Below are positions 6,983 through 26,713 of a stretch of 34,490 nucleotides of DNA, in pieces. Made by a program: the position numbers and the translations under genes. Within the stretch, counting starts at the first letter, position 1; every line of letters starts with the position of its first letter. This DNA is from Flavobacteriaceae bacterium (GTDB lineage: Bacteria > Bacteroidota > Bacteroidia > Flavobacteriales > Flavobacteriaceae): assembly GCA_022424955.1 (NCBI GenBank), contig JAKMGK010000024.1, positions 1 to 34,490 on the forward strand, written 5' to 3'. Below the pieces are notes generated by a model, which searched no databases, had not been told where the DNA came from, and saw nothing but the letters and a program-made list of their open reading frames with translations.

Positions 6983-8263
6983 TTAATAGTGACACTTACC
7001 ACACTCTAAGCCTCCCATTTGGGCTGCTGTGAGTTTTTCCACTCCGTATTTCTTCGAAAGTGCCTCGTGTATTTTAGTATAATACTCGTTATCTTTTACT
7101 TTCACATTTGTTTCTCTGTGACAGTTGATACACCACCCCATGGTTAAGGGAGAGTATTGATACATAATTTCCATCTCTTCAACTGGTCCGTGACAGGTTT
7201 GACACTCAATCTGTCCTACTTGCACGTGTTGTGCGTGGTTGAAGTAAACAAAGTCTGGTAAATTATGAATACGCACCCATTTTACTGGCTCTGTTTCACC
7301 AGTGTACTGCTGGTTTTCTTCATCCCAACCTACTGCAGCATATAATTTCTTGATTTCTTTGGTATAGAATTCTTTGGTATAACCATTCTCTAGATCTTCC
7401 TCGCCGTTGTATTCTGCAATATTTTTGTGACAGTTCATACAAACATTAAGAGAAGGAATACCTGAATGCTTTGAAACCCTTGCAGAAGAGTGACAGTATT
7501 TACACTCGATCTGGTTTGCTCCAGCGTGAATTTTATGAGAGTAATGGATGGGCTGTACCGGCATATAACCCTGGTCGACGCCTACTTGCATTAAGTACCC
7601 ATATGCAAAGTATGCACTTGATAGCAATAGGAATACTACAGAAAGTAATACCAAAAATTGGTTTTGTGCAAAGGCTTGCCACAATGGACGACGGGCAGGC
7701 TTTTCAACCACAGGGGCTAATTCCACTCCTTGCGCCGCGGCAATTTTCTGTAAGGTCTTGTTGACTAAAATCAACATGACTACTAGTATACCAAAAACTA
7801 GGGCCAGTGCTCCTAGAATAATATCGTTGGAAAAAGAATCTCCTGCCGGCGTTGAAGTTGCTGCTGCTACTGCAGGCACTGCAGGGGCTGGAGGAGTGTA
7901 ATCTGTATAGGCAATGATGTTATCTATATCTGCATTTGATAACTGCGGGAATGCATTCATCGCAGTTTTGTTGTATTCTTCCCAAATGGCCACAGCTTGA
8001 GCATCACCCTCTTTAATCATGGCTGCGCTATTTTTGATCCAGCTGTACAACCACTCTTTGTCATACTTCGCCGAAACCCCTTTTAAGGCTGGACCTACTG
8101 CTTTCTTATTTAGTTTGTGACAGGCTGCACAATTTGCATTGAACAATTTCTTTCCTGCGATTGGGTCGGCTTCCTGCGCACTAACAGTAAAGGCAAATGA
8201 TATAGCAATTACTATGAACAAATTCTTTACTCCTGCAACAGCTCCAAGGCTACTCTTCCTCAT
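6983..8263 (-). CDS. actA: Alternative complex III subunit ActA (multiheme cytochrome c with extra N-terminal heme domain)
   Basis: A 426-residue membrane-anchored multiheme cytochrome, first gene of the act operon. A signal peptide (about residues 1-29) leads into a class-I-like cytochrome c domain with CAACH at 45-49 and a likely axial Met102. A proline/alanine linker and two hydrophobic segments (about 147-167 and 202-225) follow. The core then has CKYCH (254-258), CMNCH (275-279), CQTCH (354-358), CINCH (378-382) and CGKCH (421-425), the last one residue from the C-terminus. The five C-terminal hemes are the usual ActA pentaheme core that receives electrons from ActB. The N-terminal heme makes six in all. 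Confidence 0.95.
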   Translation of the reverse strand: MRKSSLGAVAGVKNLFIVIAISFAFTVSAQEADPIAGKKLFNANCAACHKLNKKAVGPALKGVSAKYDKEWLYSWIKNSAAMIKEGDAQAVAIWEEYNKTAMNAFPQLSNADIDNIIAYTDYTPPAPAVPAVAAATSTPAGDSFSNDIILGALALVFGILVVMLILVNKTLQKIAAAQGVELAPVVEKPARRPLWQAFAQNQFLVLLSVVFLLLSSAYFAYGYLMQVGVDQGYMPVQPIHYSHKIHAGANQIECKYCHSSARVSKHSGIPSLNVCMNCHKNIAEYNGEEDLENGYTKEFYTKEIKKLYAAVGWDEENQQYTGETEPVKWVRIHNLPDFVYFNHAQHVQVGQIECQTCHGPVEEMEIMYQYSPLTMGWCINCHRETNVKVKDNEYYTKIHEALSKKYGVEKLTAAQMGGLECGKCHY

Positions 8264-13480: not shown

Positions 13481-14086
13481 ATGAAAAACCTACTATGTGG
13501 AAAAACCCTTTTTTTTTTCGTATTTATTCCGCTTTTTACTTTTGCCCAAAACACTTTTACTGGAACTGTTTTAGACGATGAAGGTCAACCGTTATATGGT
13601 GATACCGTTATTATAAAAGACAGTAATAACGGAACTGTAATAGATGCTCAAGAGCAGTTTACCCTTAGTACCCAACGCAGTTTTCCCATCCCCATTTAAG
13701 TCTCTTTTGTGGGCTTTGACAATAGAACTTTTACGGCAGAAAATAATCAACCCAAAGAATATCAACTCTCTTTCTCTAATCGATTTGATGAAATTATCGT
13801 TTCCGCTTCGCGGAAGGCAGAAAAATTACAGGAGGCTCCAGATAGTATTTTTAATGCTTCTCTTAATTATCAATGGGATGACTGGTTTACATCCAATAGC
13901 CCCGTTTTTCCAGGATCAGTTTCGGCTAAAAACTTAGTCGATTTAACCTTAGGACTAAATTTGAGTGAGCCTTTGCGTTTAGAAGTGGCAGCCATCAACT
14001 TATTTAACAATCGATTTAGAGCGTTACCTGGCTTTCCAAGATTAGGGAGAACAGTTACTGGGAGGCTTGTAATGAACTTAAATTAA
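13481..14086 (+). pseudogene. Remnant of a TonB-dependent outer-membrane receptor
   Basis: The reading frame from ATG 13481 encodes a signal peptide (FTFAQ near residue 23), then a carboxypeptidase-like beta-sandwich segment. It stops at an in-frame TAA (13697-13699) between FPIPI and VSFVGFDN, where the family pattern expects continuous sequence. After the TAA the same frame continues through FDEIIVSASRKAEKLQEAP, the usual start of the plug domain. It then jumps near position 13845 to what looks like the last two strands of a beta-barrel, with AAINLFNNRFRALPG and a terminal RLVMNLN. Nearly all of the plug and barrel is missing. The frame is kept across the deletion, so the gene has one nonsense codon and one large internal deletion. 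Substrate cannot be inferred. Confidence 0.85.
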
Positions 14087-16821: not shown

Positions 16822-16920
16822 TAGTTTTATCTCTAAACTGGTAGTTTCAGAAATCGTTTTGACTGCTATGAGTGCGTATTATTTTCGTTTGGGGAAATGG
16901 AAAAACACCCAAGTGTAAAC

Positions 16921-17331
16921 CTAATGACGCATCATTTCAATGGTGGTATTGCCTAAAATAGAAAGGGTCTCGTCTCGGACTTTTTCAAATACAGGTTTGA
17001 TGCTGCAACTTTTTTCATCACACTCATCACATGGGGCATAATAGTTTAAAGACACACAGGGCAATAAAGCGATAGGACCATCCATCATCCGCATCAATTC
17101 AGACAACTTAATTTCAGCAGGCTTTTTAAGCAATTTATACCCTCCTGTCTTCCCCCTTTTACTTTGAAGCAATTGAAAATTGCGTAATTCCCTTAAAATC
17201 GTTTCAAGAAATTTTTGAGGGATGTTCTCCTTTTCGGCGATTTCAGTTGAGAAAATAGATCGCTGTTCAGATTGATTATCTGCTAAATACAATAGGGCCT
17301 TAATAGCATACTTACATTTCTTTGAAATCAC
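16921..17331 (-). CDS. Rrf2-family transcriptional regulator
   Basis: An Rrf2/IscR-type winged-helix regulator. The conserved N-terminus ISKKCKYAIKALLYLA, the recognition region IPQKFLETILREL and the wing SKRGKTGGYKL are clear. The C-terminal half carries four cysteines in the pattern Cys-x8-Cys-x2-Cys-x4-Cys, which could bind an iron-sulfur cluster or sense sulfur. I place the start at the GTG at 17331, which gives 136 residues beginning just before the conserved ISKK. The upstream TTG at 17355 overlaps a perfect -7 promoter element and is less likely. The gene is divergent from metY, and homologues such as CymR and CysR control sulfur acquisition, so it probably regulates metY and its own expression. 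Confidence 0.9.
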   Translation of the reverse strand: MISKKCKYAIKALLYLADNQSEQRSIFSTEIAEKENIPQKFLETILRELRNFQLLQSKRGKTGGYKLLKKPAEIKLSELMRMMDGPIALLPCVSLNYYAPCDECDEKSCSIKPVFEKVRDETLSILGNTTIEMMRH

Positions 17332-17352
17332 TGAATGGTATGTTAATTGGTT

Positions 17353-17360
17353 CAAATATA
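17353..17360 (-). promoter_or_regulatory. Candidate -7 element of the rrf2 promoter
   Basis: On the minus strand this reads TATATTTG, a full TAnnTTTG match. The predicted transcript start near 17346 lies downstream of the TTG at 17355, which supports translation from the GTG at 17331. No clear -33 TTTG is seen. Confidence 0.4.
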
Positions 17361-17460: not shown

Positions 17461-18729
17461 ATGGGAGAATTAAATTTCAATACCAAGATCCTTCATGCGG
17501 GTCACGAAGTGGACAAAACTCAAGGAACACGTGCAGTGCCAATTTATCAATCTACTGCTTATGTATTTGATAGCGCAGAACATGCAGCAAACTTATTTTC
17601 GTTAGCAGAGCCAGGCTATATCTACACACGTTTAAATAACCCAACAAATGATGTACTCGAACAGCGATTAGCTGCCCTTGAAGGTGGAATTGCTGCAGTA
17701 TCAACAGCTTCTGGAACATCGGCTATCGCAACTGCATTGATGGTTTTACTCAAAGCGGGAGATCATATTGTTGCTTCGAATAGTTTGTATGGAGGTACCT
17801 ACAATCTATTAAGTGTAACGCTACCTCGATTAGGAATTACTACTACCTTTGTGGATCCAGACAATCCTGCTAATTTTGAAGCTGCTGTGCAAGACAATAC
17901 ACGAGCATTCTTTGCAGAATCTCTAGGGAATCCAAAATTAGATGTACTCGATTTAAAAGCTATTTCTGGCTTTGCCAAAAAAGCTAAAGTCCCTTTTATG
18001 GTAGATAATACAGTGGCTACTCCTGCTTTGTTAAATCCCATTGAGCATGGAGCAAATATTGTTATCCATTCCCTAACTAAATTTATCAATGGAAATGGTA
18101 CAGCCATGGGCGGAGTGATTGTAGATGCTGGAACTTTTGACTACGGCAATGGTTTGTTCCCAGAATTTACAGAACCTTCTGCCGGGTATCACGGTCTTGT
18201 TTATCACGAAGCATTAGGTCCCGCTGCTTTTATTGCCAAAGTACGTGTAGAAGGACTAAGAGACTTTGGCGCAGCCTTAAGTCCATTTAATAGTTTCCAG
18301 ATCATTCAAGGACTCGAAACTTTAAGCGTGCGTATGCAACAGCATTCCAAAGCGGCATTAGAAATCGCAACTTGGCTGGAGGCACAAGAAGAAGTGGCTT
18401 GGGTCAATTATCCTGGTCTAAACTCGAGCAAATACAATGGCCTAGTTAAAGATTACTTGCCTAAAGGTCAAAGTGGAATCGTCACTTTTGGACTTAAAGG
18501 TGGATTTGATGCCGCGAAAAAAGTGGCAGACGAAACTAAGGTTTTCTCACTCCTAGCCAATATTGGAGACTCAAAGTCTTTGATTATTCACCCTGCGAGT
18601 ACAACACACCAACAATTAAACGAAGCGTCGCAAAAAGAAACTGGGGTAACCCAAGACTTAGTGCGTCTTTCTGTTGGTTTAGAAGATATCGAAGATTTAA
18701 AAGCCGATTTAAAACAAGCTTTTAACTAA
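17461..18729 (+). CDS. metY: O-acetylhomoserine sulfhydrylase (PLP-dependent)
   Basis: A 422-residue Cys/Met-metabolism PLP enzyme. The PLP-binding lysine is Lys207 in HSLTKFINGNG, and the cofactor-phosphate region GGTYNLL and substrate-pocket motif YTRLNNPTNDVLE match the O-acetylhomoserine (thiol)-lyase subgroup. It joins O-acetylhomoserine with sulfide to make homocysteine, or with methanethiol to make methionine. The Rrf2 regulator upstream and the siroheme synthase relic downstream mark this as a sulfur-assimilation locus. Cystathionine gamma-synthase is a related alternative, but the length of about 420 and the sequence favour MetY. If sulfate reduction is lost, the enzyme must use sulfide or thiols from other sources. 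Confidence 0.92.
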   Translation: MGELNFNTKILHAGHEVDKTQGTRAVPIYQSTAYVFDSAEHAANLFSLAEPGYIYTRLNNPTNDVLEQRLAALEGGIAAVSTASGTSAIATALMVLLKAGDHIVASNSLYGGTYNLLSVTLPRLGITTTFVDPDNPANFEAAVQDNTRAFFAESLGNPKLDVLDLKAISGFAKKAKVPFMVDNTVATPALLNPIEHGANIVIHSLTKFINGNGTAMGGVIVDAGTFDYGNGLFPEFTEPSAGYHGLVYHEALGPAAFIAKVRVEGLRDFGAALSPFNSFQIIQGLETLSVRMQQHSKAALEIATWLEAQEEVAWVNYPGLNSSKYNGLVKDYLPKGQSGIVTFGLKGGFDAAKKVADETKVFSLLANIGDSKSLIIHPASTTHQQLNEASQKETGVTQDLVRLSVGLEDIEDLKADLKQAFN

Positions 18730-18737
18730 ACTAAATT

Positions 18738-18776
18738 AGGCAAGGTTTAATCGCTTTGCCTTATTTTAATTTTTAT
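18738..18776 (+). terminator. Probable terminator after metY
   Basis: AGGCAA (18738-18743) pairs with TTGCCT (18756-18761) around a 12-base loop and is followed by a T-rich run ending near 18774. The stem is short, so this is moderate support for a factor-independent terminator nine bases after the metY stop. Confidence 0.5.
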
Positions 18777-18787
18777 AAACATATAAG

Positions 18788-18796
18788 CCCTATAGG
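18788..18796. promoter_or_regulatory. Shortened echo of the rrf2-metY palindrome
   Basis: CCCTATAGG followed by TTTTA resembles the palindrome at 17387-17404 (CCCTATA, then nine extra bases, then GGTTTTA) with the middle removed. It lies upstream of the siroheme synthase relic and could be the decayed operator of the lost sulfur operon. An 8-base palindrome can also arise by chance. Confidence 0.3.
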
Positions 18797-18839
18797 TTTT
18801 AATCTTAATTTAAAATAATGATTGATTTGATTTTAAAAT

Positions 18840-19363
18840 ACAAGAAAAGCACCTCAAGAAGGGAAGGAGTTTTTATTTAAATCTTCTCCCCTGGCCAATG
18901 TTACTCTTGTGGCACCATTCATAAGAGAAGAAACCTTAAATTTTATCAAGACAAGCCGGTCAAAGTAATCAAACGAAAAATCTGTCTGGAAGACTTACAC
19001 CGAAAAAAAATCGTCATTGCCACTACAGATGCCCCCGAAGTCAACAAAAAAGTGTAAGAAGCCTGTAATAGACGGCAAATATTAGTAAATGTGGCAGATA
19101 CTCCCGAACTTTGTGATTTCTATATGGGTGGCATCGTAACAAAGGGAAAATTAAAAATTGGTATTTCTACCAATGGAAAATCTCCGACCCTTGCCAAACG
19201 TATAAGACAATTTTTAGAGGATCTCTTTCAAGAAGAAATTGATGAACTGCTCGATACATTGCGCAGTTATAGAGAAACGCTAAAAGGAGACTTTGCGTCA
19301 AAAGTAATTGAAATGAATAAAAGAACTAAATTGTTATTGAAAAGTAAAAATGATAAAGACTGA
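18840..19363 (+). pseudogene. Decayed siroheme synthase (precorrin-2 dehydrogenase/ferrochelatase, CysG N-terminal type)
   Basis: Remains of the short siroheme synthase that oxidises precorrin-2 and inserts iron. One frame gives KEFLFKSSPLANVTLVAPF, the segment just after the usual NAD-binding GGGxVG loop, which is itself missing. A frameshift between about 18925 and 18950 leads into VKVIKRKICLEDL and IVIATTDAPEVNKKV. An in-frame TAA at 19055-19057 follows, and then the frame continues intact through LVNVADTPELCDFY, GGIVTKG and ISTNGKSPTLAKRIRQF to the stop. The fragment from GTG 19091 could make 90 residues but lacks the NAD site. The end overlaps the next gene by 14 bases, showing former co-translation. 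Siroheme serves sulfite and nitrite reductases, so this decay suggests loss of assimilatory sulfite reduction. Confidence 0.88.
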
Positions 19364-20363
19364 TATTATAATTATTGGGGCTGGCCCTGTAGGTTTATTT
19401 GCGGTATTTGAAGCTGGTCTAATGAAACTGAAATGTCATTTGATAGACGCCATTCCGCAAGCCGGTGGACAGCTGACTGAAATTTATCCTAAAAAACCCA
19501 TTTATGATATCCCTGGATATCCCAGTGTTTTGGCGGGCGAACTGATCGATAATTTAATGGAACAAGCCGCTCCTTTTAAACCTGGATTTACCCTTGGGGA
19601 ACGTGCTGAAACGATTGAAAAACATGAAGATGGAAGTTTTGTTGTCACCACAAGCGAAGGCACAAAACACCATGCTCCTGTGGTTATGATTGCAGGAGGG
19701 TTGGGGAGCTTTGAACCCCGAAAACCCAAAATCGAGAACCTTCCCTCATTTGAAAAAAAGGGAGTCGAGTACATGGTCAAAGAACCCGATACTTTTATTG
19801 GAAAGAAAATCTTTATCTCTGGCGGAGGTGACTCTGCCTTAGACTGGGCCATTTATTTTGCCGAACACAACACTACCTCTGTGGGGCTAGTGCATAGAAG
19901 CGACTCTTTTAGAGCGCATCAAGACTCGGTCGAAAAAGTACACCAATTGCAAAAAGAAGGAAAGATTGACTTCTACACCCATGCAGAAGTCGTTGGACTA
20001 AACGGAGAGGACACCCTAGATTCAATTGAAATCAAGCAAAAAGATCAACCCAATAAAACGGTTGAAGTGGATAGCTGGTTACCCCTTTTTGGTTTATCTC
20101 CTAAACTAGGGCCCATTGCCGACTGGGGTCTAGAGATTGAGAAAAATGCCATCAAAGTAAATAACACCTTAGATTATCAAACCAATATTCCTGGGATTTT
20201 TGCCATTGGAGATGTCAACACTTATCCTGGAAAGCTAAAGCTCATTCTCTGTGGTTTCCACGAGGCTACTTTGGCGGTGCAAACCGCCTATAAAATTATC
20301 CATCCCGATAAACGCTTTACCTTAAAATATACCACGGTTCAAGGGGTTCAAGGTTTTGAATAA
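19350..20363 (+). CDS. Ferredoxin-NADP reductase-like flavoprotein (thioredoxin reductase fold, no CxxC)
   Basis: A 337-residue FAD/NAD(P)-dependent oxidoreductase. The FAD site is GAGPVG at residues 10-15, the second dinucleotide site is SGGGDSALDWA (about 157-167), and the C-terminal FAD contact is GIFAIGDVNTYPG. The redox CxxC of thioredoxin reductase is absent, which places it with the thioredoxin-reductase-like ferredoxin/flavodoxin-NADP reductases of Bacteroidota, Chlorobi and Bacillus (YumC type). Its start overlaps the siroheme synthase relic by 14 bases. It probably once supplied electrons to sulfite reductase in the same operon. It is intact, so other ferredoxin-linked reactions may keep it under selection. 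Confidence 0.9.
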   Translation: MIKTDIIIIGAGPVGLFAVFEAGLMKLKCHLIDAIPQAGGQLTEIYPKKPIYDIPGYPSVLAGELIDNLMEQAAPFKPGFTLGERAETIEKHEDGSFVVTTSEGTKHHAPVVMIAGGLGSFEPRKPKIENLPSFEKKGVEYMVKEPDTFIGKKIFISGGGDSALDWAIYFAEHNTTSVGLVHRSDSFRAHQDSVEKVHQLQKEGKIDFYTHAEVVGLNGEDTLDSIEIKQKDQPNKTVEVDSWLPLFGLSPKLGPIADWGLEIEKNAIKVNNTLDYQTNIPGIFAIGDVNTYPGKLKLILCGFHEATLAVQTAYKIIHPDKRFTLKYTTVQGVQGFE

Positions 20364-26640: not shown

Positions 26641-26713
26641 TTGGCCCACTAGGGCTCGAACCTAGACTCTTCTGAACCAAAATCAGACGTGTTGCCAGTT
26701 ACACCATGGGCCA
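26641..26713 (-). tRNA. tRNA-Gln (anticodon TTG)
   Basis: A 73-base tRNA on the minus strand. The acceptor stem TGGCCCA pairs with TGGGCCA and is followed by discriminator A. The anticodon stem TCTGA/TCAGA encloses the loop TTTTGGT, giving anticodon TTG, which reads CAA and CAG glutamine codons by wobble. The T-loop GGTTCGAGCC is standard. CCA is not encoded. The gene has its own promoter and terminator. Confidence 0.97.

Follow-up and report, generated by a model that had tools for sequence, protein, structure and literature searches.

A met8 relic as the probable scar of a deleted sulfate-assimilation operon in a Candidatus Arcticimaribacter relative, and apparent repeated loss within the genus

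Introduction

Loss of sulfate assimilation is already known from SAR11 (Candidatus Pelagibacter), which like the organism studied here is a small-genome marine heterotroph without this pathway; its routes to methionine include MetY, with methanethiol being joined to O-acetylhomoserine, as described in PMC5069961. Here, we analyse a stretch of DNA of 34,490 nucleotides (contig JAKMGK010000024.1, positions 1-34,490; hereafter the window) from a member of the Flavobacteriaceae several of whose nearest named relatives are Candidatus Arcticimaribacter. Between metY and the gene for a ferredoxin-NADP reductase (FNR) it carries a relic of the siroheme synthase gene met8, which we interpret as the scar of a deleted sulfate-assimilation operon. 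Whereas most of the SAR11 clade is without the genes, the loss in Arcticimaribacter is piecemeal: some sister species are intact and others still show scars. What makes the case interesting is that the losses occur serially inside a single genus.

According to Priest et al. (2022; PMC9122927), whose annotation used KofamKoala and RAST, Candidatus Arcticimaribacter corresponds to NS5_F, the sulfur genes of the NS5 group are not conserved across genera and only NS5_B can assimilate sulfate. Contrary to this remark, the cultured Candidatus A. forsetii AHE01FL (NS5_F) and seven further genomes of the genus hold the operon, which 11/19 have lost. The authors may have meant genus-wide conservation, or their annotation may have missed the NirA-like sir gene. 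No paper on repeated loss of the cys operon in Arcticimaribacter was found among the search listings, which were limited to open PMC papers.

The deletion and the met8 relic

A close relative (genome G016, locus L048), the FNR of which is 93% identical to that of the window, has at the same site the gene order Rrf2, metY, cysH, cysD, cysN, sir, cobA, met8, FNR. The blastn alignment between the two covers metY, breaks off after G016 position 8038 and starts again within met8 at 13959; from this arrangement, a single deletion of ∼5.92 kb (L048 8039-13958) removed cysH, cysD, cysN, sir and cobA together with ∼32 codons from the start of met8. The junction matches the right flank at 5/5 bases and the left flank at 4/5. 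The sequence-only reading of the window had proposed a deletion of the sulfate-reduction core with retention of its ends, and the alignment bears this out; metY and FNR are intact.

With the intact met8 of G016 as the tblastn query, codons 30-60 align at 18858-18950 (71%); a second piece, in a different frame, spans codons 58-195 at 18941-19354 (75%, E = 2e-64). Pfam family PF13241 matches 18938-19129 (1.1e-15, 58.8 bits) with one TAA inside, and Sirohm_synth_M (PF14824) matches a 90-residue open reading frame (ORF; 19091-19363) at 2.5e-11. The homology to siroheme synthase is far beyond chance, and the decayed siroheme synthase that had been read from the letters alone is confirmed. Intact met8 products comprise 195 residues in G016 and 193 in AHE01FL, and open frames of 194-221 residues occur in nine genomes of the genus. 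Compared with these orthologues, the relic has an N-terminal deletion, a frameshift and a TAA. Members of the Met8 family (TIGR01470, with PF13241 and PF14824) can be aligned with it over codons ∼32-195 of intact met8; unlike them, it lacks the Rossmann NAD-binding loop, its first ∼32 codons being deleted, and its frame is broken with a stop inside. Of the three lesions previously taken as independent, the frameshift and the stop stand, and the missing NAD loop is simply the right end of the ∼5.92 kb deletion. The relic is also shorter than had been supposed: met8 is recognizable only from ∼18866, and the preceding 136 bases (18730-18865) are surviving metY-cysH intergenic DNA.

We consider it very probable that the deletion of a cysH-cysD-cysN-sir-cobA-met8 operon is the full explanation of the locus, and the earlier interpretation is supported to this extent. 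The ancestor would have had a single operon of these genes, ending in the FNR gene. CysDN would activate sulfate and CysH would reduce the product to sulfite; CysH is probably of the adenosine 5′-phosphosulfate (APS) type, as the operon holds no APS kinase gene or domain, although both the APS-reductase and the 3′-phosphoadenosine 5′-phosphosulfate (PAPS) reductase models exceed their cut-offs. Sulfite would then be reduced to sulfide by the NirA-like siroheme enzyme Sir (family assignment provisional), with siroheme made by CobA and Met8 and electrons presumably supplied by FNR. In the window lineage, the one deletion from cysH to met8 codon ∼32 would have left a stump, which also carries the frameshift and the stop.

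Absence of the pathway from the assembled genome

The genome that contains the window (G000) amounts to 1.80 Mb in 114 contigs and is 91% complete and 2.7% contaminated. Neither PF01507 (cysH/cysD) nor PF01077 (sulfite reductase) has a match in it, so that no APS/PAPS or sulfite reductase of these families was found in the assembled 91% (the AprAB and Sat families were not searched). The best cobA score is 21 bits against a cut-off of 185. PF13241 has five matches: the relic at 58.8 bits, three at 25-32 bits, which exceed the Pfam cut-off and lie in frames of ∼455 residues, and one at 21 bits, which falls below it. Weak matches of like kind occur across the genus, and we read them as other NAD-binding proteins. 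Among 14 control genomes, the same searches were positive in 14 (PF01507), 11 (PF01077), 13 (cobA) and 14 (PF13241). The predicted lack of cysH/cysD, sulfite reductase and cobA thus holds in the 91%-complete assembly at these cut-offs, and on our reading of the weak PF13241 matches there is no second siroheme synthase in it either.

The fragmented and slightly contaminated state of the assembly would allow the locus to be an artefact of assembly or binning in which two strains were joined, the real organism having the operon. The join, however, sits inside a 34 kb contig, and searches of the rest of the genome turned up no operon gene. The same five genes are also missing from the separately assembled G013 (seven contigs), G017 (four) and G018 (two), and met8 relics are present in G011, G013 and G015 as well. 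We regard an artefact as highly improbable.

Distribution of the operon in the genus

The survey of the genus covered 19 genomes (65-95% complete), with weak TonB and cysN pieces filtered out of the locus maps; in the wider maps of other genera and extra genomes, weak TonB, cysN, cysH, cysD, sir, cobA and FNR pieces were filtered out. The operon is present in 8/19 (G001, G002, G004, G006, G008, G009, G010 and G016; over two contigs each in G006 and G008). In G017 (L053) the block is lost and met8 remains open, with no cobA or sir there; this orphaned gene has two changes at 90 invariant positions, one of which is G136W in a conserved stretch, and it possibly represents the earliest stage of decay. 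Broken met8 relics are found in four genomes (G000, G011, G013 and G015) and no recognizable remnant is left at the site in six (G003, G005, G007, G012, G014 and G018). All 11 losers, as we call the genomes without the operon, are contiguous from MoxR to FNR, and the absence at the site is therefore not a contig gap. Profile matches agree with this census: PF01077 is found in 7/19 genomes (in G008 sir lies at a contig end and just its final third is visible) and PF01507 matches strongly in 8/19; in four losers it matches only weakly, at E = 3e-4 to 7e-4, and the frames concerned have 439-465 residues. Five extra genomes (L069, L075, L080, L083 and L084), examined at the locus only, have FNR without cys genes; the trees place them within the genus.

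The chromosome of AHE01FL (2,034,069 bases) carries the complete operon (L074; G001:C1 385948-393113), with open frames of 255 (cysH), 295 (cysD), 413 (cysN), 691 (sir), 305 (cobA, from an upstream TTG), 193 (met8) and 339 (FNR) residues. Relatives had been expected to hold the full set at this site, and they do: the cys genes lie exactly between metY or rrf2 and FNR. FNR itself is present in 19/19 genomes whatever the state of the operon, which makes it probable that further electron-requiring processes also depend on it.

Number and direction of the changes

Species trees were built from three genes (IQ-TREE) and from nine genes (FastTree), and a quick IQ-TREE run, excluding L069, L075, L080, L083 and L084, was used to count label changes; the nine-gene set is gappy (G008 fills 832, G009 1740 and the outgroups ∼1196 of 3727 columns). 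Intact and lost species adjoin on the trees (G016 and G000, with L069 between them on one tree; G006 and G007; G010 with G017 and G014; G001 and G013). Counting maximal all-lost clades gives eight, eight and seven losses on three nine-gene trees of the 19 genomes, and 11, 11 and nine when the five extra genomes are included. On the quick tree six label changes are needed, all forced by starred branches; shuffled labels require 6.4 on average and 257/500 shuffles are as low, and hence the losses are not clustered. The inner branching differs between trees (G005, G008, G014 and others). Deletion end points also differ among the losers. G013 and G011 both break within rrf2 at nearly the same base but have different right ends; a first deletion shared by these two is still possible, which is why we give a range and not one number. 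The operon appears to have been lost about 6-8 separate times within the genus.

Such a pattern could also arise from a single ancestral loss followed by regain of the operon through transfer in the eight intact genomes. The losers are the majority (11/19), the cysN of G010 is merely 60% identical to that of G016, and the disagreement between met8 and FNR described below implies some exchange. In trees of cysH+cysD+cysN and of sir+cobA+met8, however, the genus is monophyletic (support 0.99 and 0.98) and is divided into the same two clades as in the species trees; the sister genera have the operon at the site where the genus has it, likewise ending at FNR; and the losers vary in their end points and in the stage of their relics. 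Regain after a single loss is disfavoured by the operon trees and the differing end points to the degree that we give it hardly any weight, and we infer mainly vertical descent of the operon with repeated loss.

Observations that weigh against the deletion reading

Several observations do not sit easily with a dead gene left by loss of the pathway. The relic is only mildly relaxed: its ratio of nonsynonymous to synonymous differences (pN/pS) is 0.258 against G016, where the intact pair G008-G016 already gives 0.214, and 0.140 against G008 (0.081 for the intact pair G006-G008). It departs from 4/75 invariant positions, one of them at the junction, compared with 0-3 changes of 75-78 in 15 intact genes each left out once. 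The remaining genes of the locus are more constrained than the relic (pN/pS against G016 of 0.053 for metY, 0.050 for rrf2 and 0.067 for FNR). The relic differs from G008 at 13.3% of residues and intact G006 from G008 at 9.1%; the loss in the window lineage is probably young. The frameshift and the TAA are known from the assembly alone and each could be a sequence error.

This mild relaxation would fit a stretch retained for some function, such as a 90-residue protein or a leader of FNR: the ORF at 19091-19363 is open, holds the Sirohm_synth_M motif and overlaps the start of FNR with its end. It is, however, without the NAD-binding part, and the relic has no Rfam match. Other losers, moreover, have lost the stretch or have it broken in other ways and yet keep FNR. 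Retention of this kind seems to us extremely unlikely, and the deletion scar remains the preferred interpretation.

The relic is nearer to G006 (11.7% differing residues) and G008 than to G016 (25.5%), while the FNR of the window is nearest to G016 (7.4%). As met8 and FNR disagree on the nearest relative, some recombination of operon genes between species is likely, most probably involving G016. Its met8 is unusually distant from the window's relic and from the G006 and G008 genes and lies nearer to that of G010, unlike its FNR; this odd affinity makes recombination inside the G016 operon possible. The FNR tree alone splits the genus, with one clade joining the sister genera. A relocated operon within the missing ∼9% of the fragmented genome remains a doubt. 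Lastly, SulP-type transporters occur in 19/19 genomes, for which reason a co-loss of sulfate uptake was rejected, and the losers keep the cysteate synthase CapA, which should need sulfite.

Sulfur economy and sulfonolipid genes

The window's genome encodes MetY, a MetZ-like and a CGL/MetB-like enzyme, one further Cys/Met pyridoxal phosphate-dependent enzyme, the N-terminal part of a MetH-like protein and a CBS-like enzyme; most of the Cys/Met enzyme matches are below equivalog cut-offs and the exact names are provisional. The cell would be unable to use sulfate, and with this complement it is plausible that MetY makes homocysteine from external sulfide, or methionine from methanethiol, with cysteine following by transsulfuration through the CBS/CGL-type enzymes. 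Alternatively, methionine, cysteine or peptides may be taken up. The organism and the relatives that lost the operon would thus probably depend on reduced sulfur made by others.

Bacterial CapA is expected to use sulfite. In the window's genome CapA is encoded at L155 3868-4929 (G000:C34; 629 bits, cut-off 600) and is adjoined by an acyltransferase (the pair spans L155 3868-6211), the best match of which is serine palmitoyltransferase at 296 bits, below the cut-off of 640. The pair points to putative genes for sulfonolipid (capnine) synthesis. CapA is above the cut-off in 17/19 genomes of the genus and in 10/11 losers; in the two exceptions, a contig end truncates the gene (G011, 582 bits) or only a 95-bit fragment is seen (G008). 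Only the cut-off is specific, as at E = 0.001 the model matches all 14 controls, none of which exceeds it. An archaeal cysteate synthase uses sulfite (PMC12713407). SulA, the enzyme after CapA, has been characterized in PMC9304779, in the accessible portion of which the word sulfite was not found.

If CapA uses sulfite, the losers need another source of it. Cysteine dioxygenase (PF05995) was considered and rejected as the source, with matches in 0/19 genomes, although only 1/14 controls (B. subtilis) is positive. A tentative suggestion, more doubtful than probable, is that the operon is being lost repeatedly (∼6-8 times in 19 species), as though its retention were near-neutral, and that the losers, which retain sulfonolipid synthesis, import sulfite or a donor (thiosulfate, taurine or other organosulfonates) for their membrane lipids as well as reduced sulfur for amino acids.

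For some other lineages, the operon might instead have been lost as two modules, with cysHDN kept for sulfonolipids and sir-cobA-met8 lost. In L107, cysH-cysD-cysN is followed by a met8 stump, and in L110 a cysD truncated by the start of the contig is followed by cysN and FNR, so that neither locus has space for sir and cobA. L099 combines cysHDN with codons 1-182 of sir and a stump of met8, and CapA exceeds the cut-off in the L107 and L099 genomes. These are only three cases, seen at the locus alone, and in the L110 genome, presumably an incomplete single-cell genome to judge from its name, CapA has no match beyond 18 bits. The Arcticimaribacter losers, moreover, lost both halves and yet keep CapA. 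We think a two-module loss rather unlikely. Among 299 evenly drawn Flavobacteriaceae genomes (≥85% complete), PF01077 is found in 162 and not in 137, so that it is common for this family of sulfite reductases to be missing.

The regulator and other features of the window

The features of the locus are listed in Table 1. The proposed identities of the neighbours (an Rrf2 regulator, metY and a ferredoxin-NADP reductase) are borne out by profile and structure-sequence matches. The regulator matches Pfam Rrf2 at 4.4e-33 and scores above the cut-off for rrf2_super (103 bits) and below that for CymR (70 bits). The closest solved structures to FNR (phmmer) are 5ygq (6.1e-99), followed by 3lzw and 3ab1, all ferredoxin-NADP reductases; 2zbw, also among the best matches, is labelled as a thioredoxin reductase (TrxR), and the protein falls below the TrxR equivalog cut-off (144 of 343 bits).

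Table 1. Features of the sulfur locus in the window
Feature	Positions	Strand	Remarks
Rrf2-family regulator (CymR/IscR-like)	16921-17355	-	Divergent from metY; intact
metY, O-acetylhomoserine/O-acetylserine sulfhydrylase	17461-18729	+	TIGR01326 636 bits (cut-off 495); intact
metY-cysH intergenic remnant	18730-18865	+	Alignable with G016 as far as its position 8038
Deletion junction	18866-18870	+	Two blastn pieces meet with a 5-base overlap
met8 (siroheme synthase/precorrin-2 dehydrogenase) pseudogene, codons ∼32-195	18866-19363	+	tblastn, PF13241, PF14824
Frameshift zone within met8 relic (approximate)	18938-18950	+	tblastn pieces overlap at 18941-18950; three-frame translations
In-frame TAA within met8 relic	19055-19057	+	Letters and translations
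TrxR-like ferredoxin/flavodoxin-NADP reductase (FNR)	19350-20363	+	Intact; start overlaps the end of the met8 relic

The position of metY next to the cys operon, assumed to be usual in relatives, is true of one clade of the genus, that of the window, in which metY sits between rrf2 and cysH; in the sister genera seen, rrf2 and cysH are immediate, divergent neighbours with no metY between them (for example, L085, L086 and L090-L093). In the losers of the window's clade rrf2 is full length in 6/6 (G000, G005, G007, G012, G014 and G017). In those of the other clade it is broken or gone at the locus in 5/5, and a metY-sized gene (not individually annotated) lies elsewhere. The survival of rrf2 in losers only beside metY hints that Rrf2 regulates the cys operon and, in the window's clade, metY. 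The pattern suggests that Rrf2 serves both, although the 11 losers are not independent cases.

An Rfam scan of the window revealed no riboswitch or other RNA near metY; its sole match is a tRNA gene (26641-26713, - strand). Upstream of rrf2, the window has 62 unaligned bases (16836-16897) where G016 has a MATE efflux gene between MoxR and rrf2 (L048 4683-6086); ∼1.41 kb of this gene is missing, and its 3′ end is matched weakly over 26 codons (E = 0.002). The MATE gene of G007 has an internal deletion. A TonB-dependent receptor stump lies at 13709-14086, where only matches to the last ∼100 of the 578 codons in G016 were seen.

Implications

Sister species of one genus thus present a series running from the intact operon through an orphaned met8 and a broken met8 to an empty site. 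The genus has one cultured, fully sequenced member, AHE01FL, which retains the operon and in this sits badly with the published statement on the NS5 group. The kept sulfonolipid genes raise the question of where the losers get their sulfite, and the series makes it testable, by way of species distributions, whether species give up sulfate use where phytoplankton supply reduced sulfur.
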